A stretch of 20,213 nt of DNA from a virus, in IMG/VR virus record IMGVR_UViG_3300031857_001747, positions 1 to 20,213 of that record; one strand, given 5' to 3'. Within the stretch, counting starts at the first letter, position 1. The number at the start of each line of letters is the position of its first letter. The notes beneath the pieces were generated by a model, which was given only the letters and a program-made list of their open reading frames with translations, was not told the DNA's origin and did not search any database. The translations under genes and the position numbers were made by a program. Shown here piece after piece: positions 3,415 to 13,903 of the stretch.

Positions 3415-3941
3415 TCGCAATTCCACACTGTCCTGCTGACGCGCAGATCCTGCGGCCAGCCTTCGCCGTTCGTGAAGCTTCGCTCCGTGAACAGCAACAT
3501 ATTCGTTGGCCTGATCAGCAGCCGCCCGCCTCCGGTGCGCATGAACATAAACTCTTTGCTCTGCTCAGGCTCGGCACTGAACCCATCGCCATACGGGCAG
3601 GCCGTGAACAGATACTGCGCCTGCGCAATCCCGTAATCGTAGTGCGCCCAGAGATCAGACAGGTATTCATACCTGACCACGTCGAACCCTCTGCCGTAGC
3701 AGTTCCAGACCTGCGCATCCCGCAACGTCCACGTTTCAGGCGTCTGGTTAAACGCCAGCGCATGGGGCGGCAGCCCACGATAGACAGCCCCGCATTCCAG
3801 CATGACGTGGCAGGCCCACGCCCGCCCAGCCTCAGCCCTCACGGCAAACCAGACGGCAGGCTCGAAGCCAGTGCGCCCGTCCCTGACGAACGACGAATCC
3901 ACCCAGACGTATTGATGGTGCGGCAGGTCTCGACTGCTCAT
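3411..3941 (-). CDS. Hypothetical protein, 176 aa, aromatic-rich
   Basis: A soluble protein with many Trp and Tyr residues and no transmembrane segment or known catalytic motif that I can see. It starts at ATG 3941 (MSSRDLPHHQYVWVDSS), sharing ATGA with the stop of the HTH gene, and ends VSRTVWNCE. Four cysteines (C44, C50, C81 and C114) and a fifth at the C-terminus are scattered without CxxC spacing. Not recognised. Confidence 0.7.
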   Translation of the reverse strand: MSSRDLPHHQYVWVDSSFVRDGRTGFEPAVWFAVRAEAGRAWACHVMLECGAVYRGLPPHALAFNQTPETWTLRDAQVWNCYGRGFDVVRYEYLSDLWAHYDYGIAQAQYLFTACPYGDGFSAEPEQSKEFMFMRTGGGRLLIRPTNMLLFTERSFTNGEGWPQDLRVSRTVWNCE

Positions 3942-4489: not shown

Positions 4490-4767
4490 CCCACAATCTC
4501 CAGTATCTCAGGCTTGTCCGTGCAGTCGCACACCACCTCGTCGGGGTCGTTGCCGTAGACCAGAAAAATCACACCGATCTTCTGCCGCGCAGCGTTCTCC
4601 ACGTGCAGCCACTCCTCATCGCAATGCCCAAGGTTATCCATCACCTCTTCGGCATCGTCACTGTGCATCACGGGCAGCTCTTCGCCGTCATCCACTGTCA
4701 GCAGATAGCCCTTGTCCAACGCGCGGTTCACGATCTGCCGCACCACGAATCGCTCTTCACTGTCCAT
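4486..4767 (-). CDS. Conserved phage-type protein, 93 aa
   Basis: The pattern GYLLTVDDGEELPV...SDDAEEVMDNLGHCDEEWL...IGVIFLVYGNDPDEVVCDCTD resembles a small acidic protein I have seen often in phage genomes without assigned function. GAGGAGG lies 5 nt before ATG 4767. No catalytic motif is evident. Strongly acidic, soluble, probably alpha/beta. Confidence 0.75.
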   Translation of the reverse strand: MDSEERFVVRQIVNRALDKGYLLTVDDGEELPVMHSDDAEEVMDNLGHCDEEWLHVENAARQKIGVIFLVYGNDPDEVVCDCTDKPEILEIVG

Positions 4768-5214: not shown

Positions 5215-5216
5215 CC
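5198..5216. promoter_or_regulatory. Operator-like 19-bp inverted repeat at promoter B
   Basis: TGTTTA-N7-TCAACC, a degenerate copy of the TGTTGA-N7-TCAACA palindrome. The -35 hexamer of promoter B occupies its right arm, two bases from the end, the same register as at 7547-7565 and 11189-11207. Confidence 0.5.
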
Positions 5217-7563: not shown

Positions 7564-7941
7564 CACCTGAGTTTTATGCACCACCTCATCTTCGATGCGG
7601 CGTCGGCGATCGTCATCAATCGCACCCGGTTCGCCCCAAAATTCGCGGCCCAGAATCTCCCAATCCCCGCCAATTAGATACGTCCCATTGTCGCCGTTGT
7701 CATAGTCCAGATCGCGCACCCGTCCGATGCCGATGCTGGTGCTGCCGCCGAAATAGTTAGCGATCACCTGCGTCAGCCGCGCCATTGCGTATGCCGGATC
7801 CTCCTCCGGCGTGCGCATATTCAGCTTCTGCGCCGCACCTAAGAATGCCGCGATCGACTCCGGCCCTCCGTTCCAGTGGACGTAAATCCCCACGTTATCC
7901 AGCCCGAACGGGGCCAGCGTGATTACTGCTCGATTACCCAT
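7543..7941 (-). CDS. Conserved phage-type protein, 132 aa
   Basis: Start ATG 7941 (MGNRAVITLAPFGLDNVGIY) is preferred over a longer 150-codon frame because GGAGG lies 6 nt upstream and the start nests in the upstream stop. The pattern MGNRAVIT...GIYVHWNGGPESIAAFL is one I recall from many phage genomes, without a known function. No catalytic motif is obvious. Promoter C and its operator lie over the 3' end and the gap after it. Confidence 0.78.
   Translation of the reverse strand: MGNRAVITLAPFGLDNVGIYVHWNGGPESIAAFLGAAQKLNMRTPEEDPAYAMARLTQVIANYFGGSTSIGIGRVRDLDYDNGDNGTYLIGGDWEILGREFWGEPGAIDDDRRRRIEDEVVHKTQVLTGAKQ
7547..7565. promoter_or_regulatory. Operator-like 19-bp inverted repeat at promoter C
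   Basis: TGTTTA-N7-TCAACA, one mismatch from a perfect palindrome. The promoter C -35 lies in the right arm in the same register as at promoters B and D. Confidence 0.6.
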
Positions 7942-9900: not shown

Positions 9901-9919
9901 TGTTGAGCGTTCGTCAACA
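9901..9919. promoter_or_regulatory. Operator-like inverted repeat O2
   Basis: TGTTGA-N7-TCAACA, arms perfectly complementary, same 19-bp geometry as the sites at 10075 and 11189. Confidence 0.6.
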
Positions 9920-9936: not shown

Positions 9937-10074
9937 AAAATCGCCCAAAAAGCCCTAAATGTAACAAATGTAACAGCAGTGTAACAACAATTGTTACGCT
10001 CTCAGCCGCAGTTTTCCGCCATTGTAACAAATGTAACAGGATTTCCGGAAAGACAGCCCCATAGAGAGATGGTA

Positions 10075-10093
10075 TGTTGACTATACGTCAACA
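10075..10093. promoter_or_regulatory. Operator-like inverted repeat O4 (perfect)
   Basis: TGTTGACTATACGTCAACA has 7-bp perfectly complementary arms around TATAC. It is the best copy of the family and lies just upstream of the AT-rich hairpin. Confidence 0.65.
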
Positions 10094-10114
10094 CAAAAAG
10101 ACAACTCTTTATAT

Positions 10115-10136
10115 ATATCTATATTTTTATAGATAT
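10115..10136. other. AT-only perfect hairpin in an AT-rich island
   Basis: ATATCTATA-TTTT-TATAGATAT: a 9-bp perfect inverted repeat with no G-C pairs except one, inside the most AT-rich stretch of the window (about 10098-10148). It abuts a TGTTACA site. Typical of a DNA-unwinding element; no downstream T-run order that would fit a terminator. Confidence 0.6.
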
Positions 10137-10257
10137 TGTTACATATAGCAGGAAATGGCGGATTTCTGCGGCTCACAGCGTAACAAGACCCTGTTACATT
10201 CTGTTACATCTGTTACACTTTTGGTGTAACCGCTGCAAAAATCGACGATTTTCTGCG

Positions 10258-10288
10258 AAAAAGGGGTGTAAGATTTTGTTACACCCCT
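10258..10288 (-). terminator. Rho-independent terminator (minus strand)
   Basis: On the minus strand, AGGGGTGTAA pairs perfectly with TTACACCCCT over a 7-nt loop, followed by five T residues (stem and tract 10288 to 10258). It lies 10 nt after the stop of the 59-aa gene, so it ends the short operon 10684-10298 before the left operon begins. The stem includes a TGTTACA site. Confidence 0.82.
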
Positions 10289-10297
10289 CTTCTCGGG

Positions 10298-10477
10298 TCA
10301 GAAATTTGGTGTGGCGCGGCATCGCTTGGCGAATGTTCTGGCCTTGGCCTTGTCTTTGACAATGACCTCTTCCCTCACCGCATAGCGGTGGCCTCTTGCG
10401 TCGGTTGCGTAGAACCTTAACAGGGCCCAAGGCCCTGTCTGCCATGTAAAGTATTCGGCTGTCAGTGTCGGCGTCAT
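10298..10477 (-). CDS. Hypothetical basic protein, 59 aa
   Basis: Hand translation starts MTPTLTAEYFTWQTGPWALL and ends TFAKRCRATPNF. A beta-rich front with a Trp/Tyr core (WALLRFYATDARGHRYAV) is followed by a basic helix. GGAGG sits 5 nt before ATG 10477, the strongest ribosome site in the region. It is 12 nt after the 64-aa gene and right before a terminator. Not recognised. Confidence 0.75.
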   Translation of the reverse strand: MTPTLTAEYFTWQTGPWALLRFYATDARGHRYAVREEVIVKDKAKARTFAKRCRATPNF

Positions 10478-10489
10478 GGTAACCTCCGG

Positions 10490-10684
10490 TTATTCGGCGT
10501 CGCGGATGGGGGTTTGGATCTGCTCGATGGCGACGCGCGGGCCCGGGCCATACTCGAGCCACGACTCGTCGTCCTTGTAGCGCGAGGACACCCCAAGCGC
10601 CTTGCCGAGAATGTTCATGACCTTCGCGGCATCTTCGATGCTCACGACGTAGCGGTTGTAATCGATCGAAAGAATGACGTTCAT
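10490..10684 (-). CDS. Hypothetical protein, 64 aa, with ribosome site in a hairpin loop
   Basis: Start ATG 10684 (MNVILSIDYNRYVVSIEDAA) is chosen over the in-frame ATG at 10699 because GGAG lies 7 nt upstream and the longer start would lie inside the hairpin. The protein has alternating strands and a helix (EDAAKVMNILGKALG), then RVAIEQIQTPIRDAE. It is the first ORF downstream of the structured block and promoter D. Not recognised. Confidence 0.75.
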   Translation of the reverse strand: MNVILSIDYNRYVVSIEDAAKVMNILGKALGVSSRYKDDESWLEYGPGPRVAIEQIQTPIRDAE

Positions 10685-10685
10685 G

Positions 10686-10702
10686 TTAATGCTCCGCATT
10701 AA
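10686..10702 (-). promoter_or_regulatory. Hairpin holding the Shine-Dalgarno of the 64-aa gene
   Basis: TTAATGC-GGA-GCATTAA, a perfect 7-bp stem on the minus strand. The loop plus the first stem base spell GGAG, 7 nt from ATG 10684. Ribosome access would depend on this tight triloop hairpin. Confidence 0.65.
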
Positions 10703-11174
10703 AGCAATCGGCCCAATGCCGATGCCTCCGGAACGGAGATGCTTCTCCCTTCGGGAGGCAAGAGGTGGCGTTCCCTCTTTGCCCTAGTCCGTAGCTATCA
10801 TGGGGATTTCGAACACACGTTCCGCTGTTGATTGGCCAAGCGCCCCCCGTCTCGGTGAACCACCCCGAGACTGACCGACACAAACCAGTCGGGCTGAAAG
10901 CCCTACGCTCCCTTCCAAGGGGTAGACGACTAGTGTCGAGCTGGAAGCCACTATCGTGGTGGCTATGATGACAGCGTCCAGCTTTAGCTGTCTGTTATGA
11001 AACCTTGCATTCCATCGCTCCGTCACAGAGCGGACTATGTGCCTCAGTTCTTGCCTGTCGAGGCTTCGCCTAGCTTTGACCGATCTAGGGTCGGGTCTGG
11101 TAACGGGTCTTCGACCTGTCTCATGTCGTCACTCGGACTGTCTGAGAAGCGAGGCGTTCATCGTTTCGACCCCT
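10703..11174. ncRNA. Candidate large structured noncoding RNA (strand unresolved)
   Basis: About 470 nt with no gene but at least fifteen local stem-loops. Perfect stems include 10707-10723 (ATCGGC/GCCGAT), 10726-10738, 10745-10757, 10849-10871 (GTCTCGG/CCGAGAC), 10875-10892, 10891-10903, 10946-10964, 11016-11032 and 11061-11071. AGCTGGA 10939-10945 pairs with TCCAGCT 10977-10983, while GACAGC 10970-10975 pairs with GCTGTC 10987-10992, giving a pseudoknot. A long-range helix joins 10802-10813 (GGGG, 3-nt bulge, TCGAA) with 11165-11173. Promoter D (minus) would start transcription at that closing helix, but several stems use G-U pairs only if the plus strand is transcribed. No known family was recognised. 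Confidence 0.55.
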
Positions 11175-11176
11175 TA

Positions 11177-11205
11177 ATAACAGCCGATTGTTGAGCGGCG
11201 GTCAA
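11177..11205 (-). promoter_or_regulatory. Leftward promoter D
   Basis: TTGACC (11205-11200), a 17-bp spacer, TGTTAT (11182-11177), then TAAGGGGT. Spacer bases and the -10 match promoter C closely. Predicted start is about 11170-11173, at the edge of the structured block, so the transcript would be the structured RNA followed by the two small genes and the terminator at 10258. Confidence 0.65.
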
Positions 11206-11207
11206 CA
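11189..11207. promoter_or_regulatory. Operator-like inverted repeat O5 at promoter D
   Basis: TGTTGA-N7-TCAACA, perfect 6-bp arms, with the -35 hexamer in the right arm two bases from the end. Confidence 0.65.
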
Positions 11208-11344
11208 CAATTCGAAAACTTTTTTTGTAACCCGTAGGGTTAGGGTTGCCGATCGAATGGCTTGCCCGATGATTTTTCTGGCGGATTTTTACAATTGTGC
11301 AGTGCAGCAAAACGCCGAGTCGCCTCGTGATGTGATCGTCATGA

Positions 11345-11490
11345 CGTGCAGGCGTGCAGGCGCGCGCGTCCCTGCGGATGCTAACCATCCGGTTAGCCGC
11401 GTGATCGCGTCACCCGCGCGTCATGCACAGGCGTGCCCCCGGGCGTGCGCGCGCACCCCCACCCACCCACTCGCGCGCGGGCGGGCCCGA
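11345..11490. other. GC-rich palindromic block
   Basis: Within 150 nt there are a tandem GTGCAGGC repeat (11345-11360), a perfect stem GCTAACC-atcc-GGTTAGC (about 11380-11397), a 12-bp palindrome GTGCGCGCGCAC (11445-11456) and C-runs at 11456-11468 (CCCCC, CCC, CCC) that make GGG runs on the minus strand. No coding frame is convincing. Possible roles are a protein-binding or packaging-related site; nothing specific is recognised. Confidence 0.45.
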
Positions 11491-11580
11491 TCCCCCACAG
11501 TATACACCCCCATCGATCCACGTTTGCGCACAGAAATTTCCGGTTCAGCGTTCAGACTCCCACCCCTGTAAAAATGCGAC

Positions 11581-11820: not shown

Positions 11821-12372
11821 ATGGCTGACGAAGAAGAGGCCGGCGAAGAATTGTGGGCACAGACCGTGATGCACGGTGTGAACGGCGACACGTCGATGAC
11901 GCCGGACGCTGTATTTGTGCGTCAGTATGTGAAGACTGGCGACGCGATGTTGGCGGTGAGTCAGGCTGGATTGACGGACAGTCGGTATCCATTGAGTGTG
12001 ATGGCGGAGCATCATCTCTCGCGGCCTGAGATAAGGGCGGCGATTGAGATTCAGCAGCAGTTGATGAAGCAGGAGGAGAAGCGCCGCGCGCGGATGGCGG
12101 GTGGTTATTCGCTGCAGTTATTGCTGGATGATTTGGAGATTTTGCATCAGCAGGCGCGGGAGGGTGGTGCGTTTGCGCCGGCGATTAGCGCGAAGAAGGT
12201 GCAGGCGCAGATGCTGGGGTATTTGGATAAGACGGTTCACGTGACGCATTCGGTTGAGCCGCGCGAGATGACGACGGACGAGCTGAGGCGTCGGATTGCT
12301 GAGTTGAGTGCGCCGGCGTTGGAGGATAAGTCGATTATCGAGGGTGATTTCACGGAACTGAATAATGGCTGA
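11821..12372 (+). CDS. terS: Terminase small subunit
   Basis: 183 residues from ATG 11821, chosen over an upstream in-frame ATG (11734) because GGAG lies 7 nt before it. The N-terminal part, MTPDAVFVRQYVKTGDAMLA followed by VSQAGL, is a helix-turn-helix typical of small terminases that recognise the packaging site. The middle (EIQQQLMKQEEKRRARM) is a helical oligomerisation region. Assignment rests mainly on this plus its position directly before the large terminase, with an 8-nt overlap. First gene of the rightward head module. Confidence 0.82.
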   Translation: MADEEEAGEELWAQTVMHGVNGDTSMTPDAVFVRQYVKTGDAMLAVSQAGLTDSRYPLSVMAEHHLSRPEIRAAIEIQQQLMKQEEKRRARMAGGYSLQLLLDDLEILHQQAREGGAFAPAISAKKVQAQMLGYLDKTVHVTHSVEPREMTTDELRRRIAELSAPALEDKSIIEGDFTELNNG

Positions 12373-13903
12373 GGCCGACCCCGAAAATCTGAAGGCGATG
12401 ATGGAGGAGTTGCTGGCTCGTGAGGAGGCAGTGGACTCGTTGGCGAAGTATATTGAGTATGTGAGCGGGATGAAGCCTCCGAGGCACATAGAATTGCTAT
12501 GTGAGAAGCTGGAGGCTGTGGCTGACGGGCGCATTAAGCGCCTGATGATCTCGATGCCTCCGGGCCATGCGAAGTCGTTTACGGCATCGCAGCACTTTCC
12601 GGCGTGGTATCTGTCGAAATATGGGAAGAAGAACCTGATCTGCGCGACGCACACGCAGGAGCTGTCGGATAGTTTCGGTCTGAAGGTGCGCAATCTGATG
12701 AAGTCGGACGAGCACCGGAAGGTTTTCCCGGAGGCCGGCATCAGTTTGGATAAGACGGCAGCGGGCGAGTGGATGACGCTCGAGGACGGGTCGTATAAGG
12801 CAACCGCTGTGGGTGCGTCGGTTACGGGTCGTCGCGGGCACATGCTGATCGGGGACGATTTGCTGTCGGGTATTGAGGCGGCTGAGTCGGAGTCGCACCG
12901 CAGGAAGCTTTGGGCGTGGTATAACAGCGATTTCTATACGCGGCGCGTGGACGATGACACGTCGATCATATTGATTGGGACGCGCTGGCACTTAGGCGAT
13001 CACTTTGGGATGCTGGATCAGGAAGAGCGGGACGGCACGGGCGAGAAGTGGGAGCGCGTGATCCTGCCGGCGCTGGCGCTGGAGGATGATCCTCTGGGGA
13101 GAAAGCCCGGAGAGGCGCTCTGGGAGTCGCAGTTCAGCAAGGAAAATCTGGAGCGGATCAGGCAGCGGTCGTCGACGACGGCGCGCATGTGGTCGTCGCT
13201 GTATCAGCAGAACCCGGTCGTGGATTCGGGCGGTATCATTGACGGGACGTGGTTTAAGTGGTGGCGACAGCCCGAACCGCCGAAGGTGCAGTACGTCATT
13301 CAGGCGTGGGACACGGCGCTGACGGCGAATAAGACCTCGGCGTATAGCGCGTCGACGACGTGGGGCGTGTTCGAGGACGAGAACGGGGTTCCGAATATAA
13401 TTTTGCTGAGCGCGTGGCGGGATCGGGCGGAGTGGCCGGTGCTGAGGCGCATGGTGCAGCGCATGGCGAACGATTACCGGGACGATAACTATAAGCTGCC
13501 GATTAAGCCGCAGCGGGGGCGCAAGCCGGACACGATCTTGGTGGAGGCGAAGGCGAACGGTCAGATGCTGATCTTGGATCTGGCGAAGGCGGGGCTGGTG
13601 GCGACGCCGTTTAACCCGGATAAGTTCGGCGATAAGATTGCGCGTGTGCGGCTGGTGACGGATCTGATCGAGAATGGTCGGGTGTGGCTGCCGGCAGCGG
13701 GCCCGACGTATCAGCAGTTGCGTAAATGGGCAGAAGAGTTCATGCAGCAGTGCATTCAGTTTCCGGCAGCGGATGCGCGGGACTGGGTCGACACGATGAC
13801 GATGGCGTTTTTGAGGATCAAGCAGTCGGGTTGGGTGGCGAATACGGAAGACCCGTATGAGGAGCGTTACGATACGCCACTTGAGCAGGCAGCGTTTTAT
13901 TGA
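12365..13903 (+). CDS. terL: Terminase large subunit
   Basis: 512 residues, full length for the family. ATPase: Walker A PPGHAKS (65-71), Walker B LIGDDLL (161-167), coupling motif IILIGTRWH (201-209). RNase-H-like nuclease: D316 in QAWDTAL, E394 in ILVEAKANG, D473/D476 in ARDWVDTM. It pumps DNA into the prohead and cuts the concatemer. The start overlaps the small terminase stop by 8 nt. The Walker A with Ala before Lys is a common phage variant. Confidence 0.96.
   Translation: MAEADPENLKAMMEELLAREEAVDSLAKYIEYVSGMKPPRHIELLCEKLEAVADGRIKRLMISMPPGHAKSFTASQHFPAWYLSKYGKKNLICATHTQELSDSFGLKVRNLMKSDEHRKVFPEAGISLDKTAAGEWMTLEDGSYKATAVGASVTGRRGHMLIGDDLLSGIEAAESESHRRKLWAWYNSDFYTRRVDDDTSIILIGTRWHLGDHFGMLDQEERDGTGEKWERVILPALALEDDPLGRKPGEALWESQFSKENLERIRQRSSTTARMWSSLYQQNPVVDSGGIIDGTWFKWWRQPEPPKVQYVIQAWDTALTANKTSAYSASTTWGVFEDENGVPNIILLSAWRDRAEWPVLRRMVQRMANDYRDDNYKLPIKPQRGRKPDTILVEAKANGQMLILDLAKAGLVATPFNPDKFGDKIARVRLVTDLIENGRVWLPAAGPTYQQLRKWAEEFMQQCIQFPAADARDWVDTMTMAFLRIKQSGWVANTEDPYEERYDTPLEQAAFY

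Follow-up and report, generated by a model that had tools for sequence, protein, structure and literature searches.

Does the gene-free block at positions 10686-11174 of the window, i.e., of the complete 20,213-base IMG/VR virus record analyzed here, give rise to a structured RNA, and if so, from which strand and of which kind? The window is probably a fragment of a larger virus genome, and its leftward and rightward arms point away from each other on either side of an intergenic region about 2 kb long. The TerL protein shares at best about 36% identity with that of isolated phages (e.g., 023Pt_psg01 and pelagiphage HTVC027P), and the phage is therefore assigned to an uncultured group. A preliminary description had regarded the block as a large ornate RNA of no known family. 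This is supported by the comparative evidence, according to which positions 10688-11173 are a real structured RNA locus with a pseudoknot and a three-way junction on the minus strand (Table 1).

Table 1. Features of the RNA and of its surroundings in the window
Feature	Position	Strand	Remarks
Large structured non-coding RNA	10688..11173	-	about 480 nt; seven homologues at the same site, covariation, held-out model test
5′ domain hairpin CUCAGACA-GUC-CGAGU-GAC-GACAUGAG	11120..11146	-	inner pair U-A becomes C-G in L005
Hairpin CGCUC-UGUGACG-GAGCG	11016..11032	-	stem letters vary with pairing kept; loop UNUGACG kept
Pseudoknot stem 1, GACAGC/GCUGUC	10992-10987/10975-10970	-	in 10970..10992
Pseudoknot stem 2, GCUGGA (5′ arm)/UCCAGC (3′ arm)	10982-10977/10945-10940	-	
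Pb hairpin GCCAC/GUGGC	10963-10959/10951-10947	-	in 10940..10963
Pc, seven-pair helix UCGACAC/GUGUCGG	10939-10933/10881-10875	-	10875..10939; encloses UAG/CUG and a variable domain
H6 hairpin GUCUCGG/CCGAGAC	10849..10871	-	both partners replaced in 6 of its 7 pairs across four sequences
Three-way junction	10802..10847	-	outer stem GGGG/CCCC, arms CGCU/AGCG and GAAC-GUGU-GUUC, linker GAAAU
3′ hairpins	10783-10757, 10759-10724, 10723-10707	-	10707..10783; compensatory changes in four close relatives
Hairpin AAUGC-GGA-GCAUU	10688..10700	-	contains the ribosome-binding GGAG of the leftward gene that follows
64-aa gene	10490..10684	-	weak PHROG 4367 match; neighbours the RNA only in the close group
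Promoter-like TTGACC, 17 nt, TGTTAT	11205-11200, 11182-11177	-	11177..11207; at the RNA 5′ end
Dyad TGTTGA-N7-TCAACA	11189-11207		overlaps the promoter-like sequence
Leftward arm			primase, PDDEXK nuclease, numerous small genes
Rightward arm	TerL at 12365, portal at 13900		TerS (by position), TerL, SU10-like portal, scaffold-like protein

Conserved pairing and the fold

In the block, 16 inverted repeats of at least 6 nt with arms within 60 nt were counted, five of which are self-overlapping palindromes, which agrees with the at least fifteen stems described before. For both strands, single-sequence folding compared with shuffled sequences resulted in z values between about -2.4 and -3.1. This proves nothing alone, because 490-nt coding stretches taken from this phage as controls deviate just as strongly (z from +1.7 to -3.3). 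Folding energy was therefore rejected as proof of a structured RNA: the comparison with shuffled sequences, proposed in the preliminary description as a check, yields the low energies and leaves the claim undecided on energy alone.

Covariation in homologous phage loci, another check proposed there, was found. In the four close sequences a 46-pair core, comprising the two pseudoknot stems, Pb, Pc, a short continuation, H6 and the three-way junction, is 100% paired. All 182 of 182 cells hold standard pairs and 11 pairs are changed on both sides, a result reached by none of 500 shuffles. Sliding the partners by one to three columns lowers the pairing to 28-44%. Pb reads GCCCC/GGGGC in L003, L005 and L007 and CGGGC/GCCCG in L009, L017 and L029. 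The junction occurs with GGAG/CUCC (L007), GAUC/GAUC, GACC/GGUC, CGCU/GGCG and AGCGC/GCGCU as further variants.

A covariance model was built from the four close relatives only, and the three distant ones were held out and not used in the fit. On these it scored 42.9, 34.3, and 34.1 bits (E from 1e-10 to 4e-8), whereas the same alignment without structure reached 19.0 and 11.8 bits and gave no match for the third; the structure thus adds about 22-24 bits on the held-out sequences where both models match. Both pseudoknot stems are rewritten in the distant three while topology and position are kept, with GCGGC/GCCGC in place of GACAGC/GCUGUC for stem 1 and CUUCCC/GGGAAG in place of GCUGGA/UCCAGC for stem 2. 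Pb, H6, and the junction arms are rewritten as well, in the same order and with nearly the same loop lengths. Since the rewritten stems were misaligned in a MAFFT alignment of all seven cores, the close and the distant group were treated separately and linked by the model search.

The pseudoknot at 10939-10992 had been recognized in the preliminary description and is real: one of this type is present in all seven sequences, at one homologous place each, while about 6% of shuffled sequences hold one anywhere. The loops UNUGACG, CAUAG, GUGU, and GAAAU are strongly conserved, and the peripheral domains are variable. Two long-range helices drawn there had to be given up, because the homologues do not keep them. 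The CCCC of the closing helix (10802-10813 with 11165-11173) is assigned by covariation to the three-way junction, with GGGG/CCCC in the window and GGAG/CUCC in L007, and TAGTCCG (10785-10791) is not complementary to the counterpart of CGGACTA (11031-11037) in L003, L005, and L007. In the 3′ part, the first two hairpins compete, because 3 nt are common to both. The last hairpin, at which the 3′ limit of the RNA was set ahead of the next start codon, is invariant in the four close relatives and missing from the distant three.

Distribution among related phages

Homologues were collected from TerL relatives in IMG/VR, then with a profile, and then with an exact pattern spanning the conserved word ATTTCGANCACACGNTCNGC, whose first two N positions show covariation (A/T, T/A, C/G). 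L001 is identical to the window. The close group holds the whole block at 70-79% identity in three distinct homologues (L003, identical to L004; L005; L007). Three divergent homologues (L009, identical to L030; L029; L017), which were obtained with the profile and the exact pattern, form the distant group. Seven distinct phages thus have the element, always between the leftward arm and TerS, and a model search of 84 sources returned the RNA in those seven only.

The block is missing between homologous flanks in L010 and L011, both with a TerL of 89% identity, and it was not found in the entire 59.5-kb L011 record. Among the matches listed in exact-pattern searches of viral contigs, there were just the seven distinct phages and chance hits. 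In genome contigs, the best model score among at least 80 kept matches was 17.2 bits, barely above that of the 20-nt search motif alone, and the phage and plasmid collections searched gave no relevant match. A further hit of the model search, L038:815-881 (E 0.07), was taken as chance, being partial and in the wrong orientation. A second copy of the RNA in the window was also rejected, as the weak matches elsewhere in the window were traced to a shared promoter motif.

Around the RNA, L009 (about 3575-3680) and L029 are near-identical, but the segment with the junction and H6 is exchanged for one with different pairing, suggestive of recombination inside the RNA. An insertion of about 58 nt (about 11040-11097), partly self-complementary, occurs only in the copy of the window; the other close relatives carry one of about 19 nt, and both insertions lie in peripheral parts. 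In L007, an int-alpA RNA (RF02996) was detected above the gathering threshold at 4491-4555 (+) between TerL and portal, where the window has no gap.

Strand, promoter and neighbouring genes

The functional RNA is very probably the minus strand, the complement of the strand shown. A model mirrored to the plus strand scored 38.7, 24.8, and 24.0 bits on the held-out three, which leaves the minus model ahead by 4 to 10 bits in every case, with both models sharing helices chosen by hand on the minus-strand reading. Mirroring also lowers the paired cells to 95.6%. In the helix table, whose helices were picked by hand while the minus strand was read, 23 wobble pairs are G-U on the minus strand only (A-C on the plus strand) and 6, all of them in one 5′ hairpin, are plus-only. 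Pc, which occurs as UCGACAC/GUGUCGG, CCAUCAC/GUGGUGG, CCAUCAC/GUGAUGG and CCGUAUC/GAUAUGG, has seven pairs in all seven sequences on the minus strand, and the third version alone is unbroken on the plus strand; Pc and UAG/CUG are mismatched there in most relatives. That the functional RNA is instead the plus strand, running towards TerS, has a very small probability: the alignment energy is similar for both strands and two 5′ hairpins, near 11085-11118 and at a GAC-loop-GUC element near 11038, pair better on plus, but the minus model scores higher on each held-out relative, Pc and UAG/CUG are mismatched on plus in most, and the promoter motif points leftward.

This motif, GTTGACNGNNGCTNAACAATNGGCTGTTAT (GTTGACN5GCTNAACAATNGGCTGTTAT), lies directly upstream of the minus-strand 5′ end at 11206(-) and was first seen as an unexpected profile match. 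Ahead of another leftward gene, at 7564(-), it is found again with all 26 of its 26 fixed bases, a full match by construction, as the motif was derived from these two sites; both full matches in the window are on the minus strand. A site at 5215(-) matches 18 of 26 fixed bases, and 18 is likewise the maximum in shuffled sequences. Strict TGTTGA-N7-TCAACA dyads were found three times in the window, at 9901, 10075, and 11189 (0.015 per shuffle). The repeated motif and the dyads are probably sites of one phage regulator. At the equivalent place, L009 and L017 have another dyad, TTTTGAC-N5-GTCAAAA, with TTGACA-N17-CATAAA. Because of the motif at its 5′ end, which we place near 11170-11173, the RNA seems to be transcribed leftward from a regulated phage promoter. 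The preliminary description had noted a well-formed promoter next to the block; a promoter-like sequence does adjoin it (11205-11177, minus strand), and its activity is presumed.

The block was correctly described as gene-free. No reading frame is conserved across the relatives, since each frame is interrupted in at least one of them and the longest frame differs between them. The first gene downstream of the RNA is the 64-aa gene (MNVIL) in the close group and a gene starting with MTRKDY or MAVITRK in the distant group. In the close group, MNVIL starts 4 nt past the last hairpin, which hides its ribosome-binding site, so that the RNA may, at least in this group, belong to an mRNA leader. The MTRKDY gene follows the RNA in L009 and L029 and is also present in many relatives in which the model detects no RNA. 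No clear intrinsic terminator was found between the RNA and the gene.

Further elements were observed in the surroundings. Many TGTTACA/TGTAACA words are located around an AT-rich core (10100-10140) within 9955-10300, at the turning region of the GC skew, and this segment is a probable replication origin. Repeats of a similar kind occur in L010, L012, and L014, all of which are without the RNA. Ahead of TerS, a strongly conserved block (11270-11560; GTGCAGTGCAGCAAAACGCCGAG and CCCCCACCCACCCACTCGCGCGCGGGCGGGC) is partly retained in L009 and L017 and is a possible packaging or second regulatory site.

Possible roles and relation to known RNAs

The reading put first, with a probability of roughly 0.58, is that of a minus-strand non-coding RNA of about 480 nt with its own dyad-controlled promoter, a stand-alone accessory RNA acting in trans. 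It is put first because of the size and complexity of the RNA, its changing neighbours, and its presence or absence among relatives. The RNA would be transcribed leftward, probably early, from this promoter, and a promoter of the same type would precede at least one other leftward gene. On the comparative evidence, it folds into the pseudoknot, the seven-pair helix, the three-way junction, and the peripheral hairpins. As a stable structured molecule it may act in trans by itself, in oligomers, or jointly with a protein of host or phage, and it would be of accessory benefit in certain hosts, as with GOLLD and ROOL. More tentatively, it could represent a new class of large phage RNA, unrelated to any described RNA class and present as a free molecule in early infection, for which an RNA-only assembly, the disarming of a host defence, or the take-over of a host RNA-binding protein are conceivable examples.

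The main rival, which we consider rather unlikely, is that the RNA works in cis as the long 5′ leader of the leftward transcript, controlling antitermination or translation of the following genes. The RNA begins at the leftward promoter motif and is immediately followed by leftward genes in both groups, and the hairpin over the ribosome-binding site in the close group as well as the lack of a detected terminator are consistent with such a leader. However, this hairpin is missing in the distant group, and relatives without the RNA retain the same arm. A gene-specific leader of the riboswitch type is unlikely, because the downstream gene changes by group and the MTRKDY gene occurs without the RNA; the RNA could yet be a leader of general type, for instance for antitermination. 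With about 480 nt, a pseudoknot, and a junction, it is far larger than the antitermination RNAs known to us.

A self-processing ribozyme or a degenerate intron-like RNA with a catalytic core is improbable. The nested pseudoknot, the strongly conserved loops, and the variable peripheral domains would fit it, but neither group I introns nor known ribozymes gave a family-model match (up to E = 10 in the window and E = 5 in four relatives), no interrupted gene surrounds the RNA, which is intergenic in 7 of 7 phages, and its topology, as read from the sequence, is without the P3 helix of the HDV fold. That the hairpins act as DNA, as an origin, packaging, or protein-binding sites, without a functional RNA, is hardly to be expected, although the block adjoins the probable replication origin and TerS and has operator-like dyads on its flanks. 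The strong strand asymmetry of the wobbles is not expected of DNA hairpins, and phages without the block retain origin-like repeats and TerS.

The covariation-supported complex fold and the lack of conserved coding capacity place the preferred stand-alone RNA in the general kind of large structured non-coding RNAs. In the window, no Rfam family, including GOLLD, ROOL, and OLE, matched at the gathering score or with E values up to 10; in L005, L007, L009, and L017 no GOLLD, ROOL, or OLE match was found up to E = 5, and none was credible for the block. The preliminary description had mentioned GOLLD and ROOL with the remark that no family could be matched, and no relation to the two is seen at the level of Rfam models. 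Because its anatomy resembles large phage RNAs and none of their models match, the RNA is filed as a new family within a kind already known, the large ornate phage RNAs, and as a member of no catalogued family. Very few such families are known to us in phages. A compact new family with a core defined by covariation, relatives without the RNA as a control group, and two divergent groups offers a clean system for asking how a phage benefits.

The put RNAs of phage HK022, which act on RNA polymerase in antitermination, are likewise structured and stand at the head of an early phage transcript. They have about 70 nt and two hairpins, whereas the RNA described here has about 480 nt, is pseudoknotted, and is not bound to one downstream gene. 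GOLLD and ROOL are large phage-borne RNAs whose function is unknown; they are often located close to tRNAs, and both assemble into RNA-only cages (PMC12286853). ROOL is likewise several hundred nt long, pseudoknotted, and without a gene partner (PMC12286853), but the ROOL model shows no likeness in fold, and a location near a tRNA island, common and not obligatory for GOLLD and ROOL, was not found here, as the 20 kb window contains no tRNA gene. GOLLD differs also in size, with many members above 800 nt (PMC12286853). In phage ICP1, which has no tRNAs, an abundant intergenic non-coding RNA of about 800 nt was described (PMC7567579); it also comes from a gene-free interval and is likened here by description, being seen by RNA-seq, whereas the present RNA is seen by covariation only. 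Finally, in the passage of PMC7567579 that cites Harris and Breaker (2018), a GOLLD RNA is reported to be dispensable for the production of one phage; comparably, the present RNA is missing from near relatives.
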